The notes under the pieces: model-generated
Databases searched by the model: none
What the model saw: only the letters and a program-made list of their open reading frames with translations
Told to the model about the DNA's origin: nothing
Assembly: GCF_010093445.1 (NCBI RefSeq)
Contig: NZ_PDWW01000006.1
Span: forward strand, 1 to 64,000
From: Pseudoxanthomonas japonensis
GTDB lineage: Bacteria > Pseudomonadota > Gammaproteobacteria > Xanthomonadales > Xanthomonadaceae
Length of the DNA: 64,000 nucleotides
Direction of reading: 5' to 3'
Program-made: the position numbers and the translations under genes
Shown here: one piece after another, positions 8,889 through 24,139 of the stretch
Layout of the letters: the number at the start of each line of letters is the position of its first letter
How positions within the stretch are numbered: position 1 is the stretch's first letter

Positions 8889-8896
8889 GGCGGCGC

Positions 8897-9619
8897 TCAG
8901 AACGAGGCTTGCAGGGCGGCTTCGACGCGCGAACCCGCCAGGCCCGGGAACAGCGCCTTGGCGCTGCTGTCCGTCGCGTGCGCGGTCAAGCGCAGTTCGA
9001 ACGGTGCCTTGAACGCCCACACGGCGCCCAGTTGCGCATGCGCGTAGCTGTCGTCGTAGGCATCGTCGAGCCAGTAGTAACCGGCGGCGGCTTCCAGACG
9101 GACCTGTTCGCTCAACGGCAGCTTCGCGCCGACCTGCGCGTAGGCACCGGCTTCATCGGTCGCCAGCGCATCGTTCGAGTAGCCGAGCTGGGCCCAGTAA
9201 TTCTGCTTCCAGGTCAGCGTGCCGATGGCCTCGGTCCAGTTGAGGTCGACGGTGGTGGACGGATAGCGGTAGTGGGTCAGGTTGACGTCGAGCGCCCAGT
9301 CCTGGGCGAGGTTGCCGCTCCAGCCGACGGCGAAATCCAGCTCGCTGCTGGCCTTGGTCTCGGGCGCGAACTCGACGTTCGAACCCCAGATGGATCCGTA
9401 CAGGCCGTTCTCAGCCGCGGCCCTGAAGCCGGCCTGCACGGCCGGATCGCCCTGCGTCTGCGTGGTGCCACGCCAGACGTAGTCGGTGGTGAGGGCACCG
9501 GACCCGCTGAGCGTCGCAGCGCTGGCGGACGATGCCACCGCCAGCAGCAGGCAGGCAGCCAGGGAGAAAACGACGAACGCAGGCCTGTGCCTGCGCGAAA
9601 CGGAGGAGATGAAAGACAT
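8897..9619 (-). CDS. TorF-family putative outer-membrane porin
   Basis: 240 residues with an N-terminal signal peptide (FVVFSLAACLLLAVASSASA, cleavage near residue 34), then alternating beta strands and a C-terminal Phe (ALQASF), as expected for an outer-membrane barrel. The opening SGSGALTTDYVWRGTTQT and the WxxNYWAQLGYSND segment match the family of small putative porins known as TorF (TIGR02001 type). It ends 8 bp before the KdpF-like peptide, so it probably belongs to the kdp transcript and may admit ions across the outer membrane; that role is inferred from context. The 119 bp upstream (9620-9738) should hold the KdpE-controlled promoter, but I could not identify a KdpE site. Confidence 0.8.
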   Translation of the reverse strand: MSFISSVSRRHRPAFVVFSLAACLLLAVASSASAATLSGSGALTTDYVWRGTTQTQGDPAVQAGFRAAAENGLYGSIWGSNVEFAPETKASSELDFAVGWSGNLAQDWALDVNLTHYRYPSTTVDLNWTEAIGTLTWKQNYWAQLGYSNDALATDEAGAYAQVGAKLPLSEQVRLEAAAGYYWLDDAYDDSYAHAQLGAVWAFKAPFELRLTAHATDSSAKALFPGLAGSRVEAALQASF

Positions 9620-9738: not shown

Positions 9739-10923
9739 TCAACCCGAGGCGCGCGTCTTCCCGCTGCGGCCGAGCACGTGGTCGGCGTCCTGGTCGAAGG
9801 TGGGCGCGGCGAACGGGGCCGGGCCCGGCGTGCGGCCGAAGGCGATCGGGCGCGTCACGCCGCGGTAGCTGCCGACGACGGGATGGGCGATCTCCGCCAC
9901 CATGTCCTCCGCCAGCACCTGCGGATGTTCGAACATGTCCTCGACGCGACGCGCGGCCGCGCACGGGACTTCGTCACCGAAGTGCGCTTCCCATTCCGCC
10001 GCGGTGCGCGCCTGCAGCGCGTCGTGCAGCTGCGGGACGATCTCGGCCGCGTGCGCGGCACGTTTGCGCACGGTGTCGTAGCGCGGATCGTCGGCCAGCG
10101 CGTCCAGGCCGGTCAGGCGGCACAGCGCCTTCCAGAAGCGCGCGGTATTGGCGGACAGGTAGAGATAGCCGTCGCGCGCCGGATGGATGCCGGTGACGCC
10201 GCCCGAGCGCATGTCCCGACCGATGTCGAGCGCCTCGCCCTCGGCCCAGATCATGCGCGCCGACTGCATGGTCAGCGCACTGCGCAGCAGCGAGACGCCG
10301 ACGAACTGGCCCAGCCCGCTGCGCTCGCGTTCGTACAGCGCCGACGACACGCCGCCGGCGAGCAGCGCCGCGGCGTAGTAGTCCACCACCGAGCCGTAGA
10401 TGATTTCAGGCGCGCCACCGCGCTTGCCCTGCAGCGTGCACATGCCGGTCATGGTTTGCAGCACCTGGTCGTAGCCGGCCTTGTCCTTCATCGGCCCGCT
10501 CTCGCCGTAGCCGGTCACCGCGCAGTAGATCAGGCGCGGGTTGATCACCGACAGGCTGTCGAAATCGATGCCCAGCCGCTTCGGCACGCTGGGACGGAAG
10601 TTGTGCACCAGCACATCGGCCTCGCGCACCAGCCGCAGCAGCGCGGCGTGATCGGCCGCCTGCTTCAGGTCCAGCACGATGCCCTGCTTGCTGCGGTTCA
10701 CACCGAGGAAGGCGCGGCTTTCCTGCTCCAACGTGGACGGGTACTGGCGCAGGTTGTCGCCATCCGGCGGTTCGACCTTGACCACGTCGGCGCCCTGGTC
10801 GGCCAGTAGCGTGCAGCCGTACGGACCGGCGATGTAGGCGCTCAGGTCGAGCACCTTGACGCCGCTGAGCGGCCCGGCCGGGCCATGGCGCCGGGGGGCG
10901 CGGAAGGGAGAGGCAGTGTCCAT
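9739..10923 (-). CDS. Class III (CaiB/BaiF-type) CoA-transferase
   Basis: 394 residues of the formyl-CoA-transferase/CaiB family, which moves CoA between carboxylic acids. Family features include LSGVKVLDLSAYIAGPYGCT near the N-terminus, ADVVKVEPPDGDNLR, VNRSKQGIVLDLK, VHNFRPSVPKRLGID and YCAVTGYGESGP. The expected catalytic Asp aligns with the SVVDYYAAALLAGG stretch. The start at 10923 is preceded by GAAGGAG at a good distance; the open frame continues further upstream but lacks such a site. The substrate is unknown. It lies 121 bp downstream of the GH127 gene and in the same wider region as a CitE-like lyase (23207-24049), which suggests an activate-then-cleave pathway for a hydroxy acid. 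Confidence 0.88.
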   Translation of the reverse strand: MDTASPFRAPRRHGPAGPLSGVKVLDLSAYIAGPYGCTLLADQGADVVKVEPPDGDNLRQYPSTLEQESRAFLGVNRSKQGIVLDLKQAADHAALLRLVREADVLVHNFRPSVPKRLGIDFDSLSVINPRLIYCAVTGYGESGPMKDKAGYDQVLQTMTGMCTLQGKRGGAPEIIYGSVVDYYAAALLAGGVSSALYERERSGLGQFVGVSLLRSALTMQSARMIWAEGEALDIGRDMRSGGVTGIHPARDGYLYLSANTARFWKALCRLTGLDALADDPRYDTVRKRAAHAAEIVPQLHDALQARTAAEWEAHFGDEVPCAAARRVEDMFEHPQVLAEDMVAEIAHPVVGSYRGVTRPIAFGRTPGPAPFAAPTFDQDADHVLGRSGKTRASG

Positions 10924-11044
10924 GGGAAGAGGCTCCTTCAACCGCCACCTGCTGGTCGGAAACCAGTCTGGTGCAGGCGGTGCAGCGGATACAGTCGGCC
11001 GCCGTAGTTTCTGCGGCCACAAATTCTTGCGAGCGCGCCGGTGG

Positions 11045-12865
11045 TCATGATGCCGGCGGCAGCGACAGCCAGGTCAGGCGCCAGGCGCCGTCCGCGCGAC
11101 CGCCGGTGCGGTAGTAGGGCCAGAACAGCAGCGGCGGCCGGTAGCCGAGCTGCAGGGTGATGCCCGGCCCTTCGCCGTCGTCGGCCACCGGCAGCACCTG
11201 CAGCCAGTCGTCCTGCGGCCCGTCCGGCAGGCGGATGGTCTCCTCGGTCTTGAAGCCGTCGACCAGCTCGGTGGCGTAGACCAGCGGCCCGCGCGTCATG
11301 CCGACGTAGTGCAGGTCCAGTACCTGCTGATGCACGGCGGAGCCGTCCGGCGCGCGCGATTCCTGCACGTTGCGCAGCACCTGCCGGTGCAGCGCGGGCC
11401 GCAGCGGGAACAGCAGCTGCACCTGGTCGCCAGCGCGCCAGTGGCGGCGGATCGCCGCGAACGTGCCGGGTATTACCGGCACGCGCACCGCTTCGCCGTT
11501 GACCGCGACGGTGGCGCCCTCGGCCCAGGACGGGATGCGCAGGCGCAGGTCGAAGGTCGCTTCGCGTTCGGGCTGCACTTCCAGCGAGATGTCGCCTTCG
11601 AACGGGTAGCCGGTGTGCTGGCGCAGTACCAGCGTGCCGGCCGCCGGATGCGAAAGGCGGGCTTCACCCGGACCGTACAGCTGCACGCGGGCGGTGTCGC
11701 CATCCAGCGCGTAAGCCAGCGACGGCAGTTCCTCCAGCGCCATCGCGCCGCTGGACTTGCAGCAGCGCCAGTAGGTGGTGTGCACGCGACGCCCGTTCGG
11801 GAACGAGTAGTAGCACCAGTCCTCGCCGTCGGGCGCGAATGCGCCGAGCAGGTCGTTGTAGGCGGTGCGCTCGATCTCCTCGGCGTAGCGCGCTTCGCCG
11901 GTCAGCCGCAGCAGCTCGCGGTTGAACTGGATCCACGACAGCAGCGAACAGGTTTCGACATAGGCCAGCGGACTGAACGTGCCGCGCGCGTTGAACACCT
12001 CGCGCGAGCGGTGCGCCACCCCGCCCCATGGACCGCCGCCGAGCGTCAGGTGGTACTGATGGATGTTCTCCCACATCGCTTCAATCGCGCGGCGCAGCGT
12101 GGCGTCGCCGGTCGCGCGGCACAGCTTGACCACGCCGACCAGATTCCACAGCAGTTGGTAGGCCTTGCCGGTGGCGATCTCCGAGGCATCGGCACCGTCC
12201 TCGATGGCCGGCAGCAGGCGCAGCGCCGGATGCGCATTGGCCTGGGCGAATACCTGCTGCGCCAAAGCGAGGAAGCGCGGCTCGCCGGCTTCCTCGTACA
12301 ACTCGAGTGCGGCATCCATCAGCACGGTGGCCGACATCCCGTGGTGGTTGCCGAGCGTGGTGATGTCGATGCCGTCGGCCAACGCGCGCGCGCACAGGTC
12401 GGCGATGCGGCCGGCGGCCTGCGTGTAGCGCTCATCGTCGAGCGCGCGTGCCGTCTCGACGAAACCGAGGATCAGGTAGGCATGCACCCACATGTCCCAG
12501 GTGCGCAGCGCCGGTGCGCCGTCCCAGCTGGGTGGTTTGGGTGGCTGCGGCTGGGTGAAGCGGCGTTCGGGCGCATAGGTGCCGAGGTAGCCGTCGTCTT
12601 CCTGCACGGAGAGCAGGTAGTCGGCGACCTCGCGCAGGTGCGCACCGAGTATCGCATCGCCGCTGCGGGCGTAGGCGCGGGCGGCGGCGGACAGCCACTT
12701 GCCGGCATGCTCGCCATACCAGTCGCCCTCGATGTTCTGCGCGCGGTGCGCGGGCGAGAACAGCGCAATGGCCGGGCTGTCGGCGCCGGTGATGAAGTGC
12801 GACAGGCGGCCGCGGCGATTCGCGTCCAGCGCGTCGCCGAGCAGGCCTCCCAGGGTGACCTTCAT
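11045..12865 (-). CDS. GH127-type beta-L-arabinofuranosidase-like glycosidase
   Basis: 606-residue (alpha/alpha)6-barrel protein of the DUF1680/GH127 family, whose characterised members release beta-L-arabinofuranose using a zinc-bound cysteine nucleophile. The cluster is intact: E304-T-C306 in AYVETCSLL and the C368-C369 pair in TYWRCCKSSG align with the Glu-x-Cys and Cys-Cys zinc ligands and nucleophile of HypBA1, and E289 (SREVFNARG) is the likely acid/base. The related GH146 family cannot be excluded. There is no signal peptide, so the enzyme is probably cytoplasmic. The ATG at 12865 lies 5 bp after the stop of the upstream fusion gene; an in-frame ATG upstream overlaps that gene. It probably acts on imported arabinosylated oligosaccharides. 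Confidence 0.87.
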   Translation of the reverse strand: MKVTLGGLLGDALDANRRGRLSHFITGADSPAIALFSPAHRAQNIEGDWYGEHAGKWLSAAARAYARSGDAILGAHLREVADYLLSVQEDDGYLGTYAPERRFTQPQPPKPPSWDGAPALRTWDMWVHAYLILGFVETARALDDERYTQAAGRIADLCARALADGIDITTLGNHHGMSATVLMDAALELYEEAGEPRFLALAQQVFAQANAHPALRLLPAIEDGADASEIATGKAYQLLWNLVGVVKLCRATGDATLRRAIEAMWENIHQYHLTLGGGPWGGVAHRSREVFNARGTFSPLAYVETCSLLSWIQFNRELLRLTGEARYAEEIERTAYNDLLGAFAPDGEDWCYYSFPNGRRVHTTYWRCCKSSGAMALEELPSLAYALDGDTARVQLYGPGEARLSHPAAGTLVLRQHTGYPFEGDISLEVQPEREATFDLRLRIPSWAEGATVAVNGEAVRVPVIPGTFAAIRRHWRAGDQVQLLFPLRPALHRQVLRNVQESRAPDGSAVHQQVLDLHYVGMTRGPLVYATELVDGFKTEETIRLPDGPQDDWLQVLPVADDGEGPGITLQLGYRPPLLFWPYYRTGGRADGAWRLTWLSLPPAS

Positions 12866-12870
12866 GTCGC

Positions 12871-15060
12871 TCACGCCGCATCCACCACGCAACGGAAGCC
12901 GATGCGGCCGGACCGGTCCTTGCCAGGCGCCATCAGCAGCAGCTTGCCGTGCTGGTCCAGGCGCTTGGCCTGCGGGAAGTACCAGTGCGAGGTGCGCGGC
13001 TCGTAATCGCTGCCACCGCGCACGATGGCGGCGCGCGTGTGCTCGTCATGGAATTCGTCCGTCCACTGCCAGACATGGCCGACCAGGTCCATCACGCCGA
13101 ACGGACTGGCGCCGGCGGGATATGCGCCGACCTCGGCCGGCGGCGGCAGCACGCGGCCGCGGAACACCGGCGGTGCCGCATCGTCGCGCCAGGCATCGCC
13201 CCACGGATACAAACGCCCGTCGGTACCCTGCGCGGCGTACTGCCACTCCCACCCGTGCGGCAGGCGCTTGCCGGCCCACGCGGCATAGGCGCGCGCGTCC
13301 TCGATCGACACCCAGGTCACCGGACGGTTGTCCCAGCCTGGTTGCGGCGCGCCATTGCGCCAGTCGCGCAGGAAGTGCTGCGCATCCTGCGGGGCGTAGC
13401 CGGTGGCGTCGATGAAATCCTTGAACTGCGCGTTCGTCACCAGATGGCGATCGATGTGGAACGACGCGACCTGCATGCGGCGGCGGTGATGGCGACGTGC
13501 GGTGGGTTCCCACGGGAACTGCACGTCCACGCCTTCCCACACCTGCCCTTCGATCTCGATGCCCTGCACCGCGAACAGGAATTCGCTGGCGGGGATCGTG
13601 ACCATGCCGTCCGGCGCATCGGCCTGCGGCGTGGTCGGCGCGATCGGCTGCAGGGTCTGCGGCAGCGCGGTCCACGTGGCAGACAGCGAGGCCAGCGGTG
13701 TCGCCGCTTCCTTCGCCATCTGCGCGAGGAAGTCATCCAGCCCCGCTTCCTGCGCACCGTCGCGCAGCGCCAGCAACGCACCGAAGCCGCGGCCTTCCAG
13801 CGTGGTCTCGAGGATTGCCTGGCCATCGATGATCCGCGGCTGCAGCGGCGTGCCGTTCCACAGGTCGAGATAGCGCGTGCCATCGACGTGCGGTACGGCG
13901 AGCTGCTCACCTTCGATCGGGTATTCGTGACGGTTGACCAGCGTCCACAGCGTGCGGTCGTCGGCCGGGAAGCGGCTGGCGAAGATGCCCGCCTGCAGCG
14001 TGCGCTCGTAGGGACGCCAGTCCAGGCTGACCGGCAGCGACGGAAAGCGGCGGTAGATCGCGGCGATGCGGCGCAGCGAGGCGGCGTCGCGCGGGGTCAG
14101 CTGGTTCCACAGGCCCCACACGTTCTCCCACGCGTTGTAACCCACGCCGTTGAAGAAGATGTACTGCAGGTCGTGGTTGCGGTCGCGGCCCCAGCGGTTC
14201 TCGTAGTTGATCATGTGGCGCGGTTCCAGCCACTTGAACTTGGCCACCGGCGGCACGACCTCGTTCGGCGCCTTCTTGCCCCAGCTCTGCACGTTCCAGA
14301 TCAGGTGCTCTTCGGCGCTGATCGTGGACTCCGGCTGCACCACCACCGGATGGCCGAGCGCATCGCAGGCGTCGAAGAACGCGCGCGGCACGCCGTTGTA
14401 GGTGTCGCCGTTGATGCCGTCGGCGCCGACCGCGACGACGATCTTCGCGATGGCCTGCCAGTCGGGCTCGCCCTCGTCGCGGGTGCCGTTGTCCCAGGGC
14501 ATGGTGGTGAGGAACACGCGCACGCCGCGGCGATGGAAATCGTCGACCGCGCCGCGCAGCGCGTCCAGCCCGCCCGGCAGGCTGCGGGCGAAGTCGAACT
14601 GGTTGCGGTCGTCCACGCCGATGTTGGGGTACACGCACCACAGCAGCACGCTGTCGAGACCGCCGAAACGCGCTTCCAGATCGTCGAGGTAACGGTCGAC
14701 GGTGTAGCGGCCGGCGACGGGATCGTAGAGATAACGATCCTCCACCATCACCTGCGCATGCACGAAGTTGCGCTGCGCCCACTGCAGCTCCGGACGACGG
14801 TAGTTGGCGTCGTCGTAGCCGATGCGGGTGAGGTGTTCGCGGCGCCAGTCCTTCAGCTCCGCCACCCAATCGTCGGCCGAGGCGTTGGCGTCGATCTTCC
14901 ACTGGCCGATGTCGGCGAACGGCCAGCCCGGCGCCTTGCCCGGCGTGGGCAGGTAACGCTGGGTGGTGACGTGGGAGAACTTGTACTCGGTCTTCACCGG
15001 CACGCGGTCGTCGTCGTGCGCGGGATCGGGGACAGTGTCGGGGGAAGTGGGGAGGATCAT
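12871..15060 (-). CDS. Glycosidase-like barrel fused to formylglycine-generating-enzyme-like (SUMF1) domain
   Basis: 729 residues, no signal peptide. Residues 1 to about 470 look like a TIM-barrel carbohydrate enzyme: strand-like motifs include SVLLWCVYPNIGVDDRNQFD, GVRVFLTTMPWDNG, GADGINGDTYNG and HPVVVQPESTIS, with acidic residues at strand ends. I cannot place it in a numbered glycosidase family. Residues from about 486 form an FGE/SUMF1 fold (MVTIPASEF, TNAQFKDFIDATGY, PVTWVSIEDARAYAAWAG, RLPHGWEWQYAA, MDLVGHVWQWT, IVRGGS, RIGFRCV). Genuine FGEs use a Cys pair near the C-terminus; this domain has a single Cys (about 725), so sulfatase activation is unlikely and a substrate-binding role is more plausible. 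It starts 13 bp after the ribokinase-like gene and ends 5 bp before GH127. An open frame further upstream is antisense-type noise through the kinase gene. Confidence 0.85.
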   Translation of the reverse strand: MILPTSPDTVPDPAHDDDRVPVKTEYKFSHVTTQRYLPTPGKAPGWPFADIGQWKIDANASADDWVAELKDWRREHLTRIGYDDANYRRPELQWAQRNFVHAQVMVEDRYLYDPVAGRYTVDRYLDDLEARFGGLDSVLLWCVYPNIGVDDRNQFDFARSLPGGLDALRGAVDDFHRRGVRVFLTTMPWDNGTRDEGEPDWQAIAKIVVAVGADGINGDTYNGVPRAFFDACDALGHPVVVQPESTISAEEHLIWNVQSWGKKAPNEVVPPVAKFKWLEPRHMINYENRWGRDRNHDLQYIFFNGVGYNAWENVWGLWNQLTPRDAASLRRIAAIYRRFPSLPVSLDWRPYERTLQAGIFASRFPADDRTLWTLVNRHEYPIEGEQLAVPHVDGTRYLDLWNGTPLQPRIIDGQAILETTLEGRGFGALLALRDGAQEAGLDDFLAQMAKEAATPLASLSATWTALPQTLQPIAPTTPQADAPDGMVTIPASEFLFAVQGIEIEGQVWEGVDVQFPWEPTARRHHRRRMQVASFHIDRHLVTNAQFKDFIDATGYAPQDAQHFLRDWRNGAPQPGWDNRPVTWVSIEDARAYAAWAGKRLPHGWEWQYAAQGTDGRLYPWGDAWRDDAAPPVFRGRVLPPPAEVGAYPAGASPFGVMDLVGHVWQWTDEFHDEHTRAAIVRGGSDYEPRTSHWYFPQAKRLDQHGKLLLMAPGKDRSGRIGFRCVVDAA

Positions 15061-15073
15061 GGGGACTATCGGA

Positions 15074-16021
15074 TCAGGAACCGGAGAGGCCGCGGTACGC
15101 GGCGAGCGCCGCGCGGCGCGGTGTTTCGTCGGCCTGCCCGGCGAGCCAGGCATCGACCTCCGCACGCGTCGGCACGCTGGTCTGCGCACCCAGGCGCGTG
15201 CAGGCCAGCGCCGACGCGGCACTGGCGAAGCGTAGCGCGTCCGCCAGCGGGGCATGCTGCGCCAGCCGCGCGGCCAGCGCGCCGCAGAAGGTGTCGCCGG
15301 CCGCCGTGGTGTCGACAGCGTCCACCGGAAAGGCCGGCTGCAGGAACAGTTCGCCGCCACGCCGTGCGATGCAGCCGCGCGCACCCAGCGTGACCACCAC
15401 GCAGGGCACCGGCAGGCGCGCAAGCTGTTCGGCCAGCGTACCGGGGCCGGCGAGCGTGGCGAGTTCGCCTTCGTTGACGACCAGCAGGTCGACGTCGTCC
15501 AGCAGGCCGGCCGGCAATGCCGTCGCGGGGGCGGCATTGAGCATGACGCGGACACCGGCCGCGCGCGCGACGTGCGCGAAGCTGGCGACCGTGTCCAGCG
15601 GGGTTTCCAGTTGCAGCAGCAGGTGGCTGACGCCGCGCAGCGACGGCAGGTGGTGCGGCCGCAGCGCGGCGTTGGCGCCGGGGGCGACCGTGATGGCGTT
15701 CTCGGCGTCATCGGACAGGCAGATGAAGGCCGTACCGCTGGCGACGTCCGCTGCACGGATGACATGCCGCTCGACGCCGGCCTCGGCCAGCGCCTTGTCG
15801 AGCACGGCGGCATACGGGTCGTCGCCCAGCGCGAGCAGCATGCGTGTATAGGCGCCGCCCGCCCGCGCGCAGGCGACCGCCTGGTTGGCGCCCTTGCCGC
15901 CGGGAAACGTGGCGAAGTCGCGCCCCAGCACGGTTTCGCCGGGCGCAGGGACGTGCGACGCCCGCACGACGAAATCGAGGTTGGCCGAACCGGCCACCAG
16001 CACCGTGCCGGCCGCCTTCAT
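15074..16021 (-). CDS. rbsK: Ribokinase/PfkB-family sugar kinase
   Basis: 315 residues, cytoplasmic. It has both PfkB signatures: GGKGANQA at residues 41-48 and DTTAAGDTFCGAL around residue 237-248 with the catalytic Asp at about 243. Substrate-side residues GSANLDFVV near the N-terminus resemble ribokinase, so ribose (or another pentofuranose) is the likely substrate. Its placement beside a GH127 gene raises the possibility that the true substrate is a pentose released from a glycan; this is inference, and the symbol reflects family resemblance only. It overlaps the upstream esterase by 4 bp (ATGA). Confidence 0.82.
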   Translation of the reverse strand: MKAAGTVLVAGSANLDFVVRASHVPAPGETVLGRDFATFPGGKGANQAVACARAGGAYTRMLLALGDDPYAAVLDKALAEAGVERHVIRAADVASGTAFICLSDDAENAITVAPGANAALRPHHLPSLRGVSHLLLQLETPLDTVASFAHVARAAGVRVMLNAAPATALPAGLLDDVDLLVVNEGELATLAGPGTLAEQLARLPVPCVVVTLGARGCIARRGGELFLQPAFPVDAVDTTAAGDTFCGALAARLAQHAPLADALRFASAASALACTRLGAQTSVPTRAEVDAWLAGQADETPRRAALAAYRGLSGS

Positions 16022-17298
16022 GGCAATACCTCCGCATACACCTGGCGGTAGAACGGTCCGGCCAGCTTGGGCAGCGCGGGTGCGCCGTCCACGGGCAGGT
16101 GCTGCGACATCAGCACGATGACGAGGTGACGTGCGGGATCGATGGTGAAGTAGGTCGACGCCGCGCCGGACCAGCCGAACTGTCCGACCGAACCGGGGCG
16201 CGTGCTCTTCGCCGGATCGGTGACGACGTAGCCGCCCAGCCCGAAGCCTTCGCCCGGTTCCGGTGCGGGCACGGCAGGATCGAATGCCGCGAGCTGGTCG
16301 GTCATCATCAGGGCGACGGTGTCCTTCTTCAGAAGACGCGTGCCGTCCAGGTCGCCGCCATTGGCCAGCATGCGAGCGAAGCGCAGGTAATCGTCGGCGG
16401 TGGAGTACAGGCCGCCGGCACCGCTGGTGTAGGCGCGCAGTGCGATGCCGGGCGTACGCGCCGACGATGTATCGGCCAGGACGCGACGACCGTCCGCATC
16501 GCGCGAGGTCAGCGCGATCACGCGGCCACGCTGCGTGGCCGGCACCTCGAAGCCGGTGTCGCGCATGCCGAGCGGCGAGAAGACACGGGTCTGCAGGAAG
16601 TAGTCGAACGATTGGCCACTGGCGACTTCGATGACGCGCGCCAGCACTTCGGTATTGACGCCGTCGTAGCGGAAGCGCGTACCGGGTTCGTCGGCCAGCG
16701 GCGCACGGGCGACGCGGTCGGCATAACCGGCGAGATCGGAGGCGTCTTCCGGTGCCTGCCGTTGCAGCAAGGCGGAAGCGACACGGATGTCGTCGCCACC
16801 GGTGGCGAAGCCGGCGGTATGCGTGAGCAGGTGCCGGATCGTCAACGGGCGCGTCACGGATGCGAGCTGCGGGTCATCGACGTCGCCGCCGGTCACCCGT
16901 CGCAGCGACGCGAAGGCCGGCAGGTAGTGCGCGACCGGATCGTCCAGCCGCAGCCTGCCCTCTTCCACCAGCATCAGCGCCGCCACCGAGGTGATCGGCT
17001 TGGTCATGGAGTAGATGCGGAAGATGGCGTCTTCGCGCAGCGGTCGGCGGCCCTGCAGGTCTGCATGACCGGACACACCGCGATAGACCACGGCATCGTG
17101 GTCGGCGACCACGGCAACGGCACCGAGATAGCCGTCGGCACCGGTGGCCTGGCCCAGCCAGGCATCGAGCGGTGCAGGCGGCAGCGAAGGAGCGGCCGTC
17201 GCGCACGCAGCCAACGAGAGCATCAGGGCCATCCAGAGCCCGCGCCGCCCGGGAGAGGGGGCGACGCGGGCGGATGCAACGTGGGGGGGAGCCGGCAT
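16018..17298 (-). CDS. Beta-lactamase-family serine hydrolase/esterase, lipoprotein
   Basis: 426 residues. The N-terminus has a lipoprotein-type signal (LWMALMLSLAAC, lipobox Cys at residue 32), so it is probably anchored in the periplasm or outer membrane. The class-C beta-lactamase/penicillin-binding-protein fold is shown by the S97-M-T-K100 catalytic tetrad (IYSMTKPITS), TIRHLLTHTAGF and RYDGVNTEVL, with QFGWSGAAST near the end. Such proteins are often esterases (EstB-like) rather than antibiotic-degrading enzymes. Its place between a TonB receptor (14 bp upstream) and a sugar kinase (4 bp overlap) argues for removing acyl groups from an imported glycan. Confidence 0.82.
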   Translation of the reverse strand: MPAPPHVASARVAPSPGRRGLWMALMLSLAACATAAPSLPPAPLDAWLGQATGADGYLGAVAVVADHDAVVYRGVSGHADLQGRRPLREDAIFRIYSMTKPITSVAALMLVEEGRLRLDDPVAHYLPAFASLRRVTGGDVDDPQLASVTRPLTIRHLLTHTAGFATGGDDIRVASALLQRQAPEDASDLAGYADRVARAPLADEPGTRFRYDGVNTEVLARVIEVASGQSFDYFLQTRVFSPLGMRDTGFEVPATQRGRVIALTSRDADGRRVLADTSSARTPGIALRAYTSGAGGLYSTADDYLRFARMLANGGDLDGTRLLKKDTVALMMTDQLAAFDPAVPAPEPGEGFGLGGYVVTDPAKSTRPGSVGQFGWSGAASTYFTIDPARHLVIVLMSQHLPVDGAPALPKLAGPFYRQVYAEVLP

Positions 17299-17312
17299 CC
17301 GTGGATCGTGGA

Positions 17313-19601
17313 TCAGAACGTGTATTCGTAGGTGAACGAGTACATGCGGCCACGGCCGGCCCAGTAGTTCCGCCAGCCCGGTACCTGCGACCAGGTGAGG
17401 ATGTACTGCTTGTTGGTCAGGTTCTCGATGCCCAGCGAGAAGCGGCCGACCTTCTCCACCCGGTAGTTCACGCCCAGGTCGAACAGCGTGTAGCCGGTGG
17501 TGTGTTCCTCATAGCTGAACTCGCGGTTGTCGTACGGCCGCACGTCGCTACCGGACAGGTCGCGCGACAGCAGCGTGGTCGAGCCCAGCGTGGCGTCGCC
17601 GGCTTCCGAGAACTTCCAGCGCACCGACAGCGCGATCTTGTCGGGATTCACGTCCAGCGCACCGATGGGCTTGTTGAGCGGGCCTGCATCCCAACGACCC
17701 TCGGGATCCTGGGTCCAGAACGACGTCTTACCGCGGATCCGCGAATAGACACCACTCAGCTTCCAGGCGTCGTTGATGGTCCAGTCGCCGGAGAACTCGA
17801 AGCCCTTGATGCGCGTCGGCGCGCGGAACAGCGTGTAGTCCTCGGTGATCGGATCGATCACATAGGAGGACCCGAGCTTGGAGCGCGAGTCGTAGTGCGA
17901 CGCACTGAACGACGTGCGCTCACCGCGCCAGTTGACGCCGATCTCGCGGTTGTCGACGACGACGGCCTTCAGTTCCTGGAAGGTCGAATCGACGGTAGCC
18001 GGCGGATCGCCCGGGCAGCCATCGGGCTTGGTGTCGTTCGGATCGTTCGGGCAGGAGATGTTGCGCAACGGGATGCCGACATTCGGCAGCCCGAAGCCTT
18101 CGCCATAGGCACCGAATACCGACCACTGGTCGGTGATGCGCCAGATCGCGCCGAAGTTCACCAGGTTCTCCTGATAGCTCAGCTTGCCGCCCTGCACGAA
18201 GCGGCGGTCGCGGTACCAGGTTGTGGTGTAGTCGTTGACGGACAGTTCGCCGTCCTCACGCCGGAAACCACTGCTCAGGGTGACCGGCCCGATGTCGTAG
18301 CTGAGCTGCATGTAGGGCGCGACGCTTTCGTACTCCATCGGCGGCACCCACAGACGGTTGGTCAACGCAAGGCGCTGGTCGGCCTTGTCGCGTACCCAGT
18401 CGACGCCGGTCCGCAGTTCCAGCCCTTCCACGCCGAACAGCTCACCGCGCGTCCACGATGGACGGAAGCCCACCTTGTCGGAGTTGATTTCCGACTGGTC
18501 CCAGATCAGTCCATCGGGACCGTTCGGCGGAATCAACGGGTCCTGGCGATCGCTGCCGTTCTCCGCCGGATAGCGCATGGCCTGGTCCGCCCAGTAGGCA
18601 TTCAGGCTCAGGGTGCCGCCGAAGAAATCGGCATCGGTATAGATGACGTTGACCTGGGTGAAGTCGTTGAACTCGGCCTTGGTGCCGAACAGGTGGCCAC
18701 GCTCCGACGTGTTGGGGCTCGGGTTCTCGCACCAGCCTGGCTCGTACCTGCAGCCATCGACCTGGACGTAGTTGCCATTGCCCTCGATCTTGAAATCGCT
18801 GTAGCTGACCTGCAGGCGCTTCTCGAGATCCTCGCCGAAGTTGATGCCGCCCTTGACGAACAGGTTGCGCGCCTCCGAATCGCTGACCGAGCCGCTGGTG
18901 TTCATGCCCAGGCGCAGTCCGTTGGCGTCATAGCCCATGCCGCGATCGATACGCGACACGCCGACGATCATGTCGTAGTTGTCCTGCTTGCGGGCGAAAT
19001 TCATGCCGACCTTCCAGCCCGCGCTGTCATCCTTGAACTGCGTCGAATAGCGGGTCAGCAGACGGAACTCGTTGCCTTCCTTGGTCGGAACCGCGGAGAT
19101 GTAATTGATGATGCCGCCGGATGCGCCGATACCCTCGGATGCCGAAGGGCCGTTGATCACCTCGACGCGCCCGACGATACCCATGTCGGTGAAGGTCGCG
19201 TTGCGGCTGCCGTCGCGCAGCGGCGACCCCTGCGGAACGCCGTCGAACAGGCGCAAGGCCACGCGACCGCGCAGTGTTTCGCCACTGTTGCTCATCGCCT
19301 GCGATGCCTCGGCATAGCCGGGAACCGTGCGCGCGAGCACCGCGGTCGCGTCGTCCGTCAACAGCAGCGTGTGGGCGATCTCTTCCTTCGTTACCAGCGA
19401 CACGGCACCCGGGATCTTGTCGACCGATTTCGCCGACCGGACACCGGTGACGATCACCTGGTCCAGATCGACAGCATCCTTCGCGCGCTCCTGTTCGGAG
19501 GCCGCATCCTGCGGCAACGGGGTGTTCTGTTGGGCTTGGACGCTGGCGCTGACGGCGGCGGCCAGCAGGAAAACGCCGAACGCGGCGGGTACCTGTTTCA
19601 T
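17313..19601 (-). CDS. TonB-dependent outer-membrane receptor
   Basis: 762 residues with a signal peptide ending near SVQA-QQN (residue 23), a TonB-box-like DQVIVTG, a plug domain (IPGAVSLVTKEEI, LRGRVALRLFDG, GRVEVINGPSASEGIGASGG) and a C-terminal 22-strand-type barrel ending in an aromatic residue (TYEYTF). The plug resembles siderophore/vitamin receptors, but the gene heads a run of carbohydrate genes transcribed the same way with gaps of 14 bp or less, so an oligosaccharide is the likelier ligand. It lies downstream of the LysR gene, with a 227 bp promoter region holding a candidate regulator site at 19791-19808. Confidence 0.92.
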   Translation of the reverse strand: MKQVPAAFGVFLLAAAVSASVQAQQNTPLPQDAASEQERAKDAVDLDQVIVTGVRSAKSVDKIPGAVSLVTKEEIAHTLLLTDDATAVLARTVPGYAEASQAMSNSGETLRGRVALRLFDGVPQGSPLRDGSRNATFTDMGIVGRVEVINGPSASEGIGASGGIINYISAVPTKEGNEFRLLTRYSTQFKDDSAGWKVGMNFARKQDNYDMIVGVSRIDRGMGYDANGLRLGMNTSGSVSDSEARNLFVKGGINFGEDLEKRLQVSYSDFKIEGNGNYVQVDGCRYEPGWCENPSPNTSERGHLFGTKAEFNDFTQVNVIYTDADFFGGTLSLNAYWADQAMRYPAENGSDRQDPLIPPNGPDGLIWDQSEINSDKVGFRPSWTRGELFGVEGLELRTGVDWVRDKADQRLALTNRLWVPPMEYESVAPYMQLSYDIGPVTLSSGFRREDGELSVNDYTTTWYRDRRFVQGGKLSYQENLVNFGAIWRITDQWSVFGAYGEGFGLPNVGIPLRNISCPNDPNDTKPDGCPGDPPATVDSTFQELKAVVVDNREIGVNWRGERTSFSASHYDSRSKLGSSYVIDPITEDYTLFRAPTRIKGFEFSGDWTINDAWKLSGVYSRIRGKTSFWTQDPEGRWDAGPLNKPIGALDVNPDKIALSVRWKFSEAGDATLGSTTLLSRDLSGSDVRPYDNREFSYEEHTTGYTLFDLGVNYRVEKVGRFSLGIENLTNKQYILTWSQVPGWRNYWAGRGRMYSFTYEYTF

Positions 19602-19790
19602 GGTCTGTTCTCGGAATGCTTCGGTGGACGGCGAGCGCGCGTGCGCGTCGGCGCGTGGCTGGTAGGTGTACGAGAAAGGCCGCGATGGCGGCCGGCGTGC
19701 CCAGCGTTCCTCCCAGACGCTCGAACCCGACGATGGTCAAAGCGTAGGTCGACGTCCGTCACGGAAGAATCGTCCGCGGATATGTTCACA

Positions 19791-19808
19791 GGCTAGTTTT
19801 TGTAGCGT
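19791..19808 (-). promoter_or_regulatory. Candidate regulator site (ACGCnnCAAAAACTAnC), TonB receptor promoter
   Basis: On the minus strand this reads ACGCTACAAAAACTAGCC. A closely similar sequence (ACGCAGCAAAAACTATCG) lies upstream of the citE-like gene at 24122-24139, and a weaker relative (CCGCAGAAACTACGG) upstream of the CoA-transferase at 11002-11016. The LysR-type regulator encoded between the two stronger sites is the obvious candidate, but binding is inference. Confidence 0.4.
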
Positions 19809-19828: not shown

Positions 19829-20704
19829 TCAGGCGTGGCCGGTGGCGGCACGGCTCTCCTGCAGCAGCACGGTGACCAGGCGGATGCGTACCGACGAACG
19901 CGACCACACCATGCCGATCCGGCGCGGTTCGCTGGGCAGCGGCAGCGGGATGCGCACCAGGTCCAGACCTTCCGGCCACGGCCGCGCCCAGTCCGGCACC
20001 AGCGACACGCCGAGCCCGCGGTCCACCATCACCGCGATGGCATTGAGGCCGTTCAGTTCGAACCGCTCGCGCGGCACGATGCCGGCGGCACGCAGGTACT
20101 CGTCCGCCACGCGCCCGCCCCACTGGTTGCGGTCGTAGCGGATCAGCGGCTCGGTGCGCAACAGGTCATGCGGATCGCGGCCCGCCATTCTCGCCGGCGC
20201 GATCATCACCAGCGGCTCCTCGCGCAGCAGCTGCCAGTCGCAGGTCTTGGGCAGGTTGTACGGCGCCTGCAGCACCAGCGCGGCGTCGAGTTCCCCGGCT
20301 TCCACCGCGCGATAGAGCTCGGCCGAGTACCCGGGCCGGATGAACACGTTGATCTGCGGGAACTTGTCGACCATCCGCGCCAGGATGTCCGGCAGCATGC
20401 CGGCCAGCGCGGTTGGACAGGCGCCGAGGCGGAGTTCGCCCGAGACTTCGCTGTCGTTGGCGATGCTGCGCATGTCGGCGACATCGCGCAGCAGGTCGCG
20501 TGCGCGCTGCAGGATGCGCGATCCTTCTTCGGTCAGGCTGACGGTGCGGCCCGCGCGCGCGATCAGCGGCGCACCGAGCTCGCGCTCCAGCGTGCGGATC
20601 TGCTGCGCCACCGCGGCCGGCGTGATGTTGAGCACGCGTGCGGCCGCGGCCATCGAGCCGCGGTCGGCCACCACCACGAAGGTATTCAGGAACTGGGTGT
20701 CCAC
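19829..20704 (-). CDS. LysR-type transcriptional regulator
   Basis: 291 residues. The N-terminal winged helix-turn-helix is clear (FVVVADRGSMAAAARVLNIT, then AVAQQIRTLERELGAPLIAR, about residues 8-50), and the effector-binding domain follows (SGELRLGACPTALAGMLPDI). It lies 73 bp after the symporter gene and before the TonB-receptor operon, all in the same direction, so it may be the last gene of the citE-symporter transcript. LysR proteins usually sense a pathway metabolite; the effector is not predictable from sequence. Likely targets are the adjoining operons. Confidence 0.93.
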   Translation of the reverse strand: MDTQFLNTFVVVADRGSMAAAARVLNITPAAVAQQIRTLERELGAPLIARAGRTVSLTEEGSRILQRARDLLRDVADMRSIANDSEVSGELRLGACPTALAGMLPDILARMVDKFPQINVFIRPGYSAELYRAVEAGELDAALVLQAPYNLPKTCDWQLLREEPLVMIAPARMAGRDPHDLLRTEPLIRYDRNQWGGRVADEYLRAAGIVPRERFELNGLNAIAVMVDRGLGVSLVPDWARPWPEGLDLVRIPLPLPSEPRRIGMVWSRSSVRIRLVTVLLQESRAATGHA

Positions 20705-20777: not shown

Positions 20778-23210
20778 TCACTCGGCACCCGTCACCGCGT
20801 CCTGGCGATGGATGGTCAGGCCGCGCAACGAGCGCGCGGGCGGCGGGAACAGCCAGCTCGCCGCGTAGCCGACGACGATGCAGATCAGGATGGAGATGGC
20901 CAGGTAGAAGTACGGGTGCACCAGGTCCATCGACCAGATCAGCAGGGTCAGCACGATGCTGGCGCCGATGCCGATGGCCACGCCCTGCGAATTCGCCCGG
21001 CGGGTGAACATGCCCAGCGTGTAGGCACCGGCGAATCCGCCGCCCAGCAGGCCCGCCAGTTCGATGGAGACGTCGAACAGGGAGTGGATGTCGTAGCGCG
21101 ACAGGACCAGCGCGATGCCGATGCCCACCAGCCCGACGACGACGCCCATCACTTCGGCGAAGAACACGCTCTTCTTCGGCGTGGGGTTCTTCGCCAGCTT
21201 CTCGTAGAAGTCGACCGACACCAGGGTCGACACGCTGTTGATGATGCTGGACAGGGTGGACATCGCCGCCGCGAAGATGCCGGCGATGATCAGGCCGGTG
21301 ACGCCCATCGGCAGTTCGGCCGCGATGAACAGCGGGAACGTGGCATCGATGGGCAACAGCGGATTCATGCGCTCGGGGTGCGACTGGTAGTACACATACA
21401 GCGCAGTGCCGATGGCGTAGAAGAAGAAACCGCCGGGGATCATGATCGCAGCGAAGGTCCAGATGGAGCGGCCCGCCTCCTTGTCGGACTTGGTCGACAG
21501 GACGCGCTGCATCAGCACCTGGTCCTTGGGGAACGTCAGGACGACGTCGAATACCACCAGGAAGATGAAGCCCCACACCGTCGCCTTGGTCAGATCGAAG
21601 CTGAAGTCGAACAGCTGCGTCTTGTTCTCCGCCATGGCGACGTCGAGGAACTCCGGCACGCCGCCGTTGAGGTGGTAGACGATGAAGCCGATGGCGAAGA
21701 TCGCACCGCCGAACATCACGAAGACCTGCACGAAATCGGTCCAGATGACCGCTTTCATGCCGCCGAGCGTAGTGTAGAGGATGGTGAACACGCCCATGAT
21801 CAGGATGCTCCACACCACGTCCACGCCGGTGATGGTGGCGATGGCGAGCGCGGGCAGGAACAGGATCACGCTCATGCGGCTGCCGATCTGCATGGCGATG
21901 CACAGCGCGCTGGCGAGCATGCGGATGACCGGATGGAAGCGCGTTTCCAGGTACGAGAACACCGACATCAGGTCCAGGCGGCGCAGCAGCGGCACGATCC
22001 AGATGGCGACGAAGACGAGCCCCAGCACCGCGATCAGGTTGTTGGTCAGGTACTGCCAGTTGGTCTCGAACGCCTTGGCCGGAATGGCGATGAAGCTGAT
22101 CGAACTGGTGTTGGTCGCATACAGGCTGACGCCTGCGGCCCAGAACGGAATGCTGCGCCCGCCGACGAAGAAGTCGGCCGTCGAGGCGCGCTTCTCCTGC
22201 ATGTAGAAGTACAGACCGATGCCGACCATCGCGGCCAGGTAGACCACGATCACCAGCCAGTCGAGCCATTTCAGCAGATACGTGCGTGCGGTCAGCTCGA
22301 CCGTGCCGAGCGAAGCCTCTTGCGCGTTCCAGCCGGCGAATCCGGTGCCCCAGGCGGTCAAGGTCGTCGGCACGCCCTGTTCGGGACCGGGCAGATCGGC
22401 CCACGCACGCGTGATGGTATGGAACGTCGCCAGGCGTGATGCGCCTCCGGCGGATTGCAGCACGTAGAGCACGTGGGCCTGGCCCGTGGCTCGCGCCGCT
22501 TCGGCCGCAAGCACCTTGCCCGGCACTGGATCAAGCGCCTGCCAGCCGGCATCCGCGGACCAGCGCCAGAGCGCATCACGCGACGGCGCCGGCGTGGTGA
22601 CGATCAGTTCGCCGCGTTGCGCCACCAGCGTGCCCGCCGCGGCGGCGCCCGGCCAGGGCGCCATCGGTTCCCAGGCGGACGTGGCCTGCGCCACGGTGCG
22701 ACGCAGGAGGTGCGGTTGCCCGGCCGCATCGAGGCCCGCCACGTACAGCGTGCCAGCGTGTTCGGCGAGACGGACGCCATGCAGGGTGGCCGGCAACGCC
22801 GGCAGCGCGCGCAGCGAAAGGCGTTCGCCGGCCAGGTCGGCGGCTTCCAGCACCTGCGCACCACCGTCCGTCGCGATCGGAAGTCGGTACAGGCGATCGA
22901 TGGCCGCGTTCTGCCAGCCGTCGCGCGCCGTTGCGCCATCGGGCAACACCACGGTCTGCCAGCGCTTCGCGGTCGGCGACCAGGCCAGGACCGCCGTGTC
23001 CGAGAACGCCAGCAGCCGGCCGTTCGCCGTACGCAGCGCCGTCACGGACAACGGCGGCGCCGGCAAGGTCGCCTGCTGCAGGCCCGCCAGGCTCTCCGCC
23101 CGCGCCGATGCCGGCAACAGGACGAACAGCAGGGTCAGCAGCGATACGCAGCGAAGAAGCGACGACCATCCAGCGAATGCCGGCACCCTGGACCGCGTAC
23201 GGGACGTCAT
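20778..23210 (-). CDS. Sodium:solute symporter with N-terminal Kelch-like propeller domain
   Basis: 810 residues. A signal peptide (SLLTLLFVLLPASARA, cleaved near 38) leads into about 270 residues of short repeats ending in tryptophan-containing turns (LAWSPTAKRWQTV, TSAWEPMAPWPG, DALWRWSADAGWQALDPVPG, TITRAWADLPGPE), typical of a periplasmic Kelch/NanM-like propeller. From about 315 there is a complete SSS-family transporter with 13 or so helices (WLVIVVYLAAMVGIGLYFY, ADFFVGGRSIPFWAAGVSLY, TTLGGMKAVIWTDFVQ). Related propeller-SSS fusions pair sugar or sugar-acid handling with sodium-driven uptake; here the propeller may mutarotate or bind the substrate (inference). The start overlaps the citE-like stop by 4 bp (ATGA). 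The longer open frame to 23489 is a shadow of that gene. Confidence 0.88.
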   Translation of the reverse strand: MTSRTRSRVPAFAGWSSLLRCVSLLTLLFVLLPASARAESLAGLQQATLPAPPLSVTALRTANGRLLAFSDTAVLAWSPTAKRWQTVVLPDGATARDGWQNAAIDRLYRLPIATDGGAQVLEAADLAGERLSLRALPALPATLHGVRLAEHAGTLYVAGLDAAGQPHLLRRTVAQATSAWEPMAPWPGAAAAGTLVAQRGELIVTTPAPSRDALWRWSADAGWQALDPVPGKVLAAEAARATGQAHVLYVLQSAGGASRLATFHTITRAWADLPGPEQGVPTTLTAWGTGFAGWNAQEASLGTVELTARTYLLKWLDWLVIVVYLAAMVGIGLYFYMQEKRASTADFFVGGRSIPFWAAGVSLYATNTSSISFIAIPAKAFETNWQYLTNNLIAVLGLVFVAIWIVPLLRRLDLMSVFSYLETRFHPVIRMLASALCIAMQIGSRMSVILFLPALAIATITGVDVVWSILIMGVFTILYTTLGGMKAVIWTDFVQVFVMFGGAIFAIGFIVYHLNGGVPEFLDVAMAENKTQLFDFSFDLTKATVWGFIFLVVFDVVLTFPKDQVLMQRVLSTKSDKEAGRSIWTFAAIMIPGGFFFYAIGTALYVYYQSHPERMNPLLPIDATFPLFIAAELPMGVTGLIIAGIFAAAMSTLSSIINSVSTLVSVDFYEKLAKNPTPKKSVFFAEVMGVVVGLVGIGIALVLSRYDIHSLFDVSIELAGLLGGGFAGAYTLGMFTRRANSQGVAIGIGASIVLTLLIWSMDLVHPYFYLAISILICIVVGYAASWLFPPPARSLRGLTIHRQDAVTGAE

Positions 23211-24049
23211 GCCTGCTCCTGTCCCGCCACGGCGATCACCGCGCGGGCACGCGCCAGGAACGGGGCATCCACCATGCGGCCACCGACGGCGTAAACGCCG
23301 TCGCGGGCGGCGTCGACCACCTGTCGCGCCGCATCGATCTCTTCCCGCGTCGGCGCGAAGGCCGCGTTCGCCCACGCCACCTGGCGCGGATGCACGCAAC
23401 TCTTGCCGACGAAGCCCAGTGCGCGGGCGGACGCGGCTTCGGCAAGGAAGCCCGCCTCGTCGTCCAGACCGGGGAACGCCCCATCGCAAGCGAACACGCC
23501 GGCTTCCGCGGCCGCCATGCGCAACGCGTACTGTGCGGCATGCACGTTGCGAAGATCGGCGCGCCGGATGCCGTGCGACTCGAACAGGTCGCCCAGTCCC
23601 AGTTGCAGGCCGCGCACGCGCCGGTGTGCGCCGGCGATCGACAGCGCGTTGCGCAGCGCACGCGGGGTTTCGATGTTGATCAGCAGGCCGGCGCCGCCGC
23701 GCACGCCGAGGCGGGCCTCGATGGCTTCGATCTCGGCCACGGCCTGTTTCAGCTGTTCGGCCGACTCGATCTTGGGCAGGTTGACCAGGTCGACATCGAG
23801 CGGAAGCACAGCGCGGAGGTCATCTTCCCATGCCGCGGAATGCCAGGCGTTGGTGCGCACGATCGCCTGCTTGCCGGCCTTGCGGTGCGGGGCATCGCGC
23901 AGGAAGCCCGCCACCTGTGCGCGCGCCTCCGGCTTCGCGGCGTCGGCGACCGCATCCTCCAGATCGAAGGACACCGCATCGGCCTCGCCCGCCATCGCCT
24001 TGGCGAACAGCGCGGGGCGGTCTCCGGGCACGAACAGCTTGCTACGCAT
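23207..24049 (-). CDS. CitE-like HpcH/HpaI-family lyase
   Basis: 280 residues of the citrate-lyase-beta/malyl-CoA-lyase family (TIM barrel, Mg-dependent cleavage or condensation of a CoA ester). Markers are RSKLFVPGDRPALFAKA at the start, VSFDLEDAV (metal-binding Glu/Asp), LVNLPKIES, LLINIETPRAL (second metal Glu), LQLGLGDLFESHG and FVGKSCVHPRQV. There are no partner citD or citF genes, so it is not citrate lyase; a stand-alone citramalyl-, malyl- or 3-hydroxyacyl-CoA lyase is more likely. It is the first gene of a unit with the symporter (4 bp overlap), which may import its precursor acid, and the CoA-transferase at 9739-10923 could activate it. Confidence 0.85.
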   Translation of the reverse strand: MRSKLFVPGDRPALFAKAMAGEADAVSFDLEDAVADAAKPEARAQVAGFLRDAPHRKAGKQAIVRTNAWHSAAWEDDLRAVLPLDVDLVNLPKIESAEQLKQAVAEIEAIEARLGVRGGAGLLINIETPRALRNALSIAGAHRRVRGLQLGLGDLFESHGIRRADLRNVHAAQYALRMAAAEAGVFACDGAFPGLDDEAGFLAEAASARALGFVGKSCVHPRQVAWANAAFAPTREEIDAARQVVDAARDGVYAVGGRMVDAPFLARARAVIAVAGQEQA

Positions 24050-24121
24050 GGACGGCGCTCATCATGGCGCGCAGTCTGCGGGATTCGCGTGCACGGCAAA
24101 GCCCCGGCCGGCATCTTCAAA

Positions 24122-24139
24122 CGATAGTTTTTGCTGCGT
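24122..24139 (-). promoter_or_regulatory. Candidate regulator site (ACGCnnCAAAAACTAnC), citE-like promoter
   Basis: Minus-strand ACGCAGCAAAAACTATCG, 73 bp upstream of the citE-like start and within the 135 bp gap after kdgK. It matches the site at 19791-19808 in 14 of the first 17 positions. The rest of this gap shows no other clear signal. Confidence 0.4.

Follow-up and report, generated by a model that had tools for sequence, protein, structure and literature searches.

Gene Organization of the Locus

The DNA analyzed here, hereafter called the window, is the stretch of 64,000 nucleotides at positions 1 to 64,000 of contig NZ_PDWW01000006.1 from Pseudoxanthomonas japonensis (assembly GCF_010093445.1). 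Its minus strand contains nine genes that recur together in many bacteria of soils and plants and that we tentatively consider as a single catabolic module for a carboxylate-bearing glycoside. The initial annotation of this DNA had recognized five of these genes, from a TonB-dependent receptor to a glycosidase of family GH127, as a candidate self-contained glycan-use operon spanning 10923..19601. Listed in the order in which they are read, the nine genes are:

23207..24049, minus strand: CitE-like CoA-ester lyase of the HpcH/HpaI family (PF03328, E 5.6e-44), first gene of presumed transcription unit 1
20778..23210, minus strand: kelch propeller plus sodium:solute symporter related to SiaT (PF00474; 5nv9, E 7e-82)
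19829..20704, minus strand: LysR-type regulator (PF00126/PF03466)
17313..19601, minus strand: TonB-dependent receptor (PF00593/PF07715), first gene of presumed transcription unit 2
16018..17298, minus strand: lipoprotein serine hydrolase/esterase with an SxxK site (PF00144, E 1e-70)
15074..16021, minus strand: PfkB kinase, ribokinase-like (TIGR02152)
12871..15060, minus strand: barrel/FGE-like fusion (PF03781 in the C-terminal part)
11045..12865, minus strand: GH127-family glycosidase (PF07944, E 6.6e-42; PF20736, E 1.6e-21)
9739..10923, minus strand: CaiB-type (family III) CoA-transferase (PF02515, E 6.6e-116), presumed transcription unit 3

The five genes from receptor to GH127 follow one another with gaps of 14, -4, 13 and 5 base pairs (bp; gene starts in the window as read by us), which confirms on the minus strand the tight run, with gaps of at most 14 bp, described earlier; the genes for lyase and transporter overlap by 4 bp. 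In the other loci considered below, for which start codons were called by script, the gap between receptor and esterase has a median of 125 bp and does not exceed 30 bp in 12 of 72 cases. The corresponding values are -4 bp and 62 of 65 for esterase and kinase, 25 bp and 47 of 69 for kinase and fusion, and 17 bp and 49 of 78 for fusion and GH127. This last gap is larger than 1 kb in 11 of the 78 loci, several of which contain one large gene in it; in locus L122 (12210-15059) a protein with ThuA and cytochrome c parts is encoded there.

While the layout proposed initially holds, its limits were too narrow: the CoA-transferase downstream, whose start codon coincides with the lower bound 10923, was left out, as were the regulator, transporter and lyase upstream. 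Nor are the five genes self-contained: the conserved set comprises nine, apparently arranged in three transcription units that share an upstream motif and stand under one LysR-type regulator. No SusD domain was detected with Pfam among the ten window proteins scanned, and the locus thus lacks a SusC/SusD pair; receptor, transporter, degradative enzymes and regulator nevertheless lie in one conserved locus, as in TonB-dependent carbohydrate utilisation.

Recurrence and Distribution of the Nine Genes

Scanning 84,980 species genomes for the barrel of the fusion gave 155 relatives, and the locus counts reported here refer to the best 80 of these, in which the presence of each gene was scored by tblastn with the window proteins. 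The fusion is found in all 80 loci, GH127 and the CoA-transferase in 78 each, the LysR regulator and the TonB receptor in 77 each, the symporter in 76, the esterase in 73, the kinase in 70 and the CitE-like lyase in 69. Those of the nine genes that a locus contains are collinear and share one strand in each of the 80 cases (one very short locus has the fusion alone). In 57 of them all nine follow the order lyase, symporter, regulator, receptor, esterase, kinase, fusion, GH127 and CoA-transferase, part of the 23 incomplete loci being truncated by contig ends. The order is therefore not unique to the source genome.

The 80 records carry 18 genus names and four higher labels, and the complete sets 14 genus names and three higher labels. 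Named genera belong to Xanthomonadaceae, Rhodanobacteraceae and, with Roseateles, Pelomonas, Paucibacter, Rubrivivax and Aquabacterium, Burkholderiales; named relatives show up to 94% identity in the fusion barrel. This barrel is present in 50 of 297 genomes of the own family (12 of 54 genera), in two of 369 genomes of the class and in four of 398 of the phylum, the own genome being counted each time, as well as in three of 149 Sphingomonadaceae genomes. Other phyla were covered by the genome pattern scan (best 80 of 155 relatives) and a plasmid collection. From Bacteroidota, for which no dedicated search of genomes was made, the analysis gave a single homologue of the fusion, with 36% identity, located on a plasmid of Spirosoma; the other eight genes were not found in the 33 kb around this homologue.

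We then compared 12 genomes chosen from the 50 of the family that have the fusion with 18 chosen from the 247 that lack it. Orthologues of the CoA-transferase (76-92% identity, E limit 1e-60) and of GH127 (59-83%) occur in all 12 of the former and in none of the latter, four of which contain GH127 paralogues at 31-34% identity. A nine-gene version is also present on the Sphingopyxis plasmid pSFD01, with a carboxylesterase in the place of the esterase: one end of the circular record holds the genes for lyase, symporter, regulator and carboxylesterase, the other end, in divergent orientation, those for receptor, kinase, fusion, GH127 and CoA-transferase. In a quick tree of 82 fusion proteins, Lysobacter rows lie within the clade of Rhodanobacteraceae and Pseudoxanthomonas is split over several places, which suggests transfer between genera, even if single placements are unsure given the quick method and the long rows. 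Flanking genes sampled in other loci vary between genera and look unrelated, arguing for a self-contained module; tried also as a clue to the substrate, these sampled flanks gave none.

A Motif Shared by Upstream Regions

A motif learned from the regions upstream of the receptor genes alone, CAACAAAAACTAGnCTCTGAACATAG, scores at least 12 bits before the receptor gene in 76 of 77 loci, which served as its training set. At the same threshold it is found before the CitE-like lyase in 44 of 66 loci, under 14 genus names, and before the CoA-transferase in 21 of 77. None of the other upstream regions contains it, namely those of symporter (0 of 71), regulator (0 of 77), esterase (0 of 73), kinase (0 of 70), fusion (0 of 79) and GH127 (0 of 78), the 330 bp scanned in each case being mostly coding sequence for these six genes. 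Reversed sequences gave no match in 3.25 million positions. The lyase upstream regions, searched separately, yielded the matching motif CGaAAgAAAAaCTATCGTtTGAAnAT; separate discovery on those of the CoA-transferase converged on what appears to be the coding end of GH127 and was discarded. The sites in the window are:

24111..24136, minus strand: motif site before the gene of the CitE-like lyase, 26.8 bits
19780..19805, minus strand: motif site before the gene of the TonB receptor, 44.3 bits
11004..11029, minus strand: stretch before the gene of the CoA-transferase that weakly resembles the motif, 4.0 bits, ranking third on this strand of the window

The motif is thus clearly shared by two of the three upstream regions. 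In the whole genome of 4.08 Mb, the pattern with at most one mismatch occurs only at 19782-19801 and 24113-24132. It includes CTA-N11-TAG, which fits the expectation for a LysR-type site, and the LysR protein encoded in the set is presumed to bind it and to control the module. Outside the positions before receptor, lyase and CoA-transferase, where matches were listed from 9 bits upwards, the motif precedes a PF00756 esterase in loci L089 and L092, and a reverse-strand match of 11.6 bits lies near the CoA-transferase of L064. It also precedes the receptor of the Sphingomonadales locus L136 and that of L108, the start of which was called late. Three Stenotrophomonas loci (L115, L119 and L121) have TonB receptor genes in a tandem pair, the second copy in L115 and L121 being preceded by the motif as well.

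The GH127 Protein and the Barrel/FGE-Like Fusion

Both domains of the GH127 protein exceed their Pfam cut-offs (PF07944, 144.3 against 24.9 bits; PF20736, 76.7 against 24.2 bits), and no signal peptide is seen by eye. An alignment of 40 sequences shows no variation at residues E289, E304, C306, C368 and C369, in keeping with the intact cysteine cluster claimed initially. With the roles of the acid/base Glu and of the zinc-cysteine site of HypBA1, as given in the excerpted text of PMC8106489, carried over by alignment to solved members, the protein possesses the cysteine nucleophile, the (Cys)3-Glu zinc site and the acid/base Glu; the last residue matches in the alignments with 6ex6 and is two columns off in one with 4qjy. 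The protein is distant from solved members (best phmmer E 9e-36), and its sole NCBIfam match is to aceric acid hydrolase, with 128 bits against a cut-off of 950. According to the excerpt of PMC5698469, the family covers hydrolases of arabinofuranose, aceric acid and anhydrogalactose.

The fusion protein, also devoid of a signal peptide as judged by eye, is composed of a TIM barrel (about 55-340), a beta-sandwich (about 349-432) and an FGE-like domain (about 520-725; PF03781 at 522-727 of a translation beginning two codons before the ATG). Its AlphaFold model has a pLDDT of 69 and a pTM of 0.74. Foldseek relates the C-terminal part to FGE, EgtB, CalU17 and ToxD. The modelled barrel and sandwich resemble mostly GH13-type amylases and trehalose synthase (E about 1e-9; TM scores of 0.28-0.33 by query and 0.35-0.48 by target), GH27- and GH30-type structures also being present among these best 50 of 1610 matches. 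No Pfam family reaches its cut-off for the barrel: GHL6 appears with E 0.17 in one of 11 members scanned, and AP_endonuc_2 in two of the 11, with E 0.0049 at best. Residues D219 and E244, candidates for a catalytic pair, are like other acidic residues invariant down to the Spirosoma homologue; D297 (NHD-like), considered as the third GH13-type residue, was dismissed since it is not kept in that protein.

The label FGE-like, already used in the initial annotation of this unusual fusion, is valid for the fold and not for the catalysis. FGE (SUMF1) uses two catalytic copper-binding cysteines near its C-terminus, and these are absent from all nine and all six fusion proteins in two alignments, each including that of the window. 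A single Cys is conserved in the domain, within the final GFRC, and three of nine rows have a lone Cys elsewhere. Formylglycine chemistry was therefore rejected for the fusion.

The distant homologue of Spirosoma sp. KNUC1025 (plasmid locus L153, 15869-18043) has an apparent signal peptide and is flanked by a GH28 gene and by genes for beta-helix and phosphotriesterase-family proteins, a ThuA gene being annotated nearby.

The Esterase Position and the Transporter

The esterase begins with the lipobox LSLAAC (seen by eye) and has its residues S97, K100 and Y211 each at least 97% conserved. Homologues of this PF00144 type are present in 73 loci. Four Burkholderiales loci that lack it (L089, L092, L095 and L101) contain a PF00756 esterase between regulator and receptor (Pfam for two loci, tblastn for all four). 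In three Sphingomonadales copies the place is taken by a PF00135 carboxylesterase, recognized with Pfam in L136 and L139 and from the record annotation in L155. PF00756 and PF00135 proteins share the alpha/beta-hydrolase fold, PF00144 proteins having another one. The occurrence of three families with two unrelated folds in the same place speaks for ester cleavage, and the de-acylation proposed initially is thereby supported as a probable step. In Luteimonas wenzhouensis (L098, 3453-5291, minus strand), an apparent alkaline phosphatase gene, identified by eye, lies between regulator and receptor.

Read from 23210, the frame of the transporter comprises 810 codons and begins with a signal peptide (by eye). 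Its propeller is modelled with a pLDDT of 95.9, and the Foldseek matches are kelch domains; NanM itself is not among the 50 matches listed, and the NANM cut-off of Pfam (45 bits) is not reached by any of seven transporter N-termini and one fragment, one of which gives a match at 19.8 bits. The closest solved relative of the symporter is SiaT by far. In the excerpted text of PMC5931594, SiaT contacts Neu5Ac with T58, S60, T63, Q82 and R135, of which S60 and R135 hold the carboxylate. The transporter retains these two residues as S334 and R410 (numbered from 23105), whereas T63 is replaced by S337, T58 by N332 and Q82 by N356, so that the full residue set of SiaT is not present. Conservation among the module transporters is 97% or higher at each of these five positions. 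The pattern points to a ligand that has a carboxylate but is not sialic acid.

The Kinase and the CoA Enzymes

The kinase scores 270.9 bits with TIGR02152, under the cut-off of 299.65, and its residues D16, G42, K43, E139 and D243, which we take to be those of the ribose site, are at least 97% conserved. The CoA-transferase and the lyase are members of families acting on 3-hydroxy-acids, the former by activation and the latter by cleavage. According to the excerpt of PMC6689899, PF03328 lyases use beta-hydroxyacyl-CoA, and Rv2498c cleaves (R)-3-hydroxy-3-methylglutaryl-CoA (HMG-CoA) and (S)-citramalyl-CoA. The nearest entries of the Protein Data Bank to the lyase of the window are CitE-like lyases, including 6aq4, and its NCBIfam scores lie below the cut-offs both for RipC (153 against 375 bits) and for CitE (179 against 443.4 bits). 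The CoA-transferase is the most tightly conserved of five proteins counted, with 199 of 394 positions at least 97% conserved. Succinate-HMG CoA-transferase (9br6) is its second nearest solved sequence, and it gives 209.5 bits with the NCBIfam model of succinate--glutarate (HMG) CoA-transferase, the cut-off of which is 750.

Relation to Known Systems

The module resembles the carbohydrate utilisation loci with TonB-dependent transporters of the Xanthomonas type in having a receptor without SusD, an inner-membrane transporter, glycosidases and a dedicated regulator together. It differs from them by its LysR-type regulator, CoA-transferase, CoA-lyase and barrel/FGE-like fusion, and by the lack of a sugar assignment. 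With sialic acid uptake, in which NanM mutarotase and NanS esterase are partners, it shares a SiaT-like symporter retaining the Arg and the Ser, a kelch propeller and an esterase step. However, it has neither a sialidase nor a NanA-type lyase, the other SiaT ligand residues differ, the propeller is fused to the transporter and the glycosidases have no signal peptide.

The GH127 protein has the catalytic and middle domains and the complete Zn-Cys/Glu site of the beta-L-arabinofuranosidases and aceric acid hydrolases of its family; its orthologues occur only together with the module in the 30 genomes tested. The families of the CoA-transferase and of the CitE-like lyase are those that function in the dissimilation of itaconate/citramalate and of HMG (RipC, Rv2498c, SUGCT), which makes the same type of chemistry likely, although an enoyl-CoA hydratase is not among the nine genes and the module lies in a glycoside uptake locus. 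The C-terminal domain of the fusion has the fold of FGE, EgtB, ToxD and CalU17. Unlike FGE, it is without the catalytic cysteines, and whereas EgtB joins this fold to a DinB domain, here it sits behind a glycosidase-like barrel.

Proposed Pathway and Alternatives

Taken together, we interpret the nine genes as a catabolic module that imports and degrades an acylated, carboxylate-bearing glycoside and is expressed from three units under one LysR-type regulator, a reading to which we assign a probability of about 45%. The TonB receptor would carry the glycoside across the outer membrane, and the secreted esterase would strip its acyl group in the periplasm. There, the propeller may present (and perhaps mutarotate) the acid-bearing sugar or glycoside, which the SiaT-like symporter would bring into the cytoplasm together with sodium. 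The glycoside would then be split by the cysteine glycosidase of family GH127 together with the barrel/FGE-like fusion, the ribokinase-like enzyme would phosphorylate the freed pentose of furanose type, and the CoA-transferase would activate the freed hydroxy-acid for a retro-Claisen cleavage by the CitE-like lyase, yielding acetyl-CoA and a keto acid. The gene set with its order and co-occurrence, the motif before receptor and lyase, and the families, folds and conserved active sites of the proteins are observations; the order of these steps, the ester cleavage, the recognition of a carboxylate, the split into sugar and hydroxy-acid and the LysR control are inferred. A carboxylic acid part, to which both the transporter and the CoA genes point, was absent from the earlier model. 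At the level of a guess, the compound could combine an acid of 3-hydroxy-3-methylglutaryl, citramalyl or malyl type with a ribose- or apiose-like furanose.

Several observations weigh against this interpretation. None of the nine proteins attains the cut-off of an equivalog (named-function) model, so that their activities can be assigned only at the level of the family. Retention of the Arg does not prove that the ligand is a carboxylate, and it is not obvious how a single inner-membrane transporter could import the glycoside as well as an acid set free by the esterase. Eight loci lack the kinase, and their genomes have only kinases of about 45% identity, some with an internal stop, which weakens the view that the kinase is an essential part. 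In Rudaea (L100), PF00144 and PF00756 homologues were not found, PF00135 not having been looked for. The barrel of the fusion model lies partly under pLDDT 70 and has moderate confidence. As to the regulation, the region before the CoA-transferase scores less than 12 bits in 56 of 77 loci and weakly in the window, and its best sites (29 sites of at least 8 bits) give the deviating consensus CAAGAATTTGTGGCGCCAGAACATAT. With no matching motif obtained from this set, the third regulatory link is weak. Moreover, the pattern is unmatched in three of ten genomes searched (G657, G908 and G1143), and the motif was found neither in the Sphingomonadales locus L139 nor in the plasmid stretches L154/L155, scanned except for the junction at the start of the record.

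The original idea of a five-gene operon for acylated arabinofuranoside glycans (arabinan, extensin or pectin side chains), in which GH127 would be a beta-L-arabinofuranosidase, accounts for the intact Zn-cysteine site and for the esterase in the operon, but the conserved unit consists of nine genes, the kinase is of ribokinase type rather than an L-arabinose enzyme, and the only NCBIfam match of the GH127 protein is the low-scoring one to aceric acid hydrolase. Genes resembling those of pectin breakdown do adjoin the module in the window (by eye), and a homologue of the KDG-kinase-like gene of the window lies next to it in 11 of 80 loci, all of Pseudoxanthomonas, within the DNA compared; elsewhere, nine flanking proteins sampled and the neighbours on the plasmid are not pectin enzymes, although a GH3 gene occurs in one locus and a GH28 gene beside the Spirosoma homologue. 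We regard this idea as improbable. Uptake of a pectic rhamnogalacturonan-II fragment that carries a ulosonic or branched acid (Kdo, Dha or aceric acid), with a ulosonate similar to sialic acid as cargo of the transporter, likewise has a low probability in our estimate. The close relation of the symporter to SiaT, the propeller with its one weak NANM match, the GH28 gene just mentioned and the presence of aceric acid hydrolase in GH127 (PMC5698469, in the excerpt cited above) are in its favor. Yet, of the five SiaT ligand residues two are clearly and one is conservatively changed, and beyond GH127 the set has no enzyme of rhamnogalacturonan-II type. A free ulosonate would also call for an aldolase rather than a CoA-transferase with a CoA-lyase.

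The two CoA enzymes might instead work in the synthetic direction, with the lyase condensing glyoxylate or pyruvate with acetyl-CoA into a hydroxy-acid to dispose of a C2 product of sugar breakdown. Consistent with this, Rv2498c of the same family makes malate weakly (PMC6689899, excerpt), and genes for a 2-hydroxyacid dehydrogenase and an isocitrate-lyase-family protein are annotated near the plasmid copy. The tight conservation of the CoA-transferase suggests, however, a specific substrate. Such a job is also normally done by malate synthase, and we give this option little credence. Finally, that the genes are neighbours without common function could be argued from the lack of any known pathway linking them; being contradicted by gene order, shared motif, co-occurrence and the plasmid copy, coincidental neighbourhood was ruled out, and we attach next to no probability to it.

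Neighbourhood of the Module

Upstream of the module, open reading frames at 24185-38172 of the window form, as seen by eye, a separate pectin/hexuronate island encoding KDG kinase, a second TonB receptor, a pectate-lyase-like protein, a TRAP transporter, a LacI regulator, KduI, KduD and a rhamnogalacturonan-acetylesterase-like protein. Downstream of the CoA-transferase, 5001-9619 contains genes for a KdpB-/KdpA-like potassium pump (by eye) and the putative porin TorF (TIGR02001), which is found close to the module in 10 of the 80 loci, each of them from Pseudoxanthomonas. Some loci of Stenotrophomonas and Luteimonas are followed by a transaldolase gene, identified with Pfam in L123 only, that was judged to be a housekeeping neighbour.

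Significance of the Module

A full-text search of the open-licence literature, evaluated by titles and abstract openings, found no description of the nine-gene set, in line with the initial statement that the genes match no named pathway. On the doubtful side, though conceivable, is the further proposal that the module represents an undescribed pathway of TonB-dependent uptake of an acylated glycosyl-hydroxyacid combined with CoA-dependent cleavage of a C-C bond in the acid part, and that its fusion is the founding member of a new glycoside hydrolase family, with a catalytically dead FGE-like domain reused for substrate binding.

The apparently co-regulated pathway is complete and in the same order in 14 named genera, with a plasmid copy in a further order, and its fusion extends, within the 80 loci compared, over 18 named genera. 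It includes, besides a cysteine glycosidase, a barrel enzyme that fits no Pfam glycosidase family. Since motif and full gene set are at hand, the substrate could be directly tested by screening for induction. The prediction is a natural compound of soil or plants that would join an ester, a sugar of furanose type and a hydroxy-acid.

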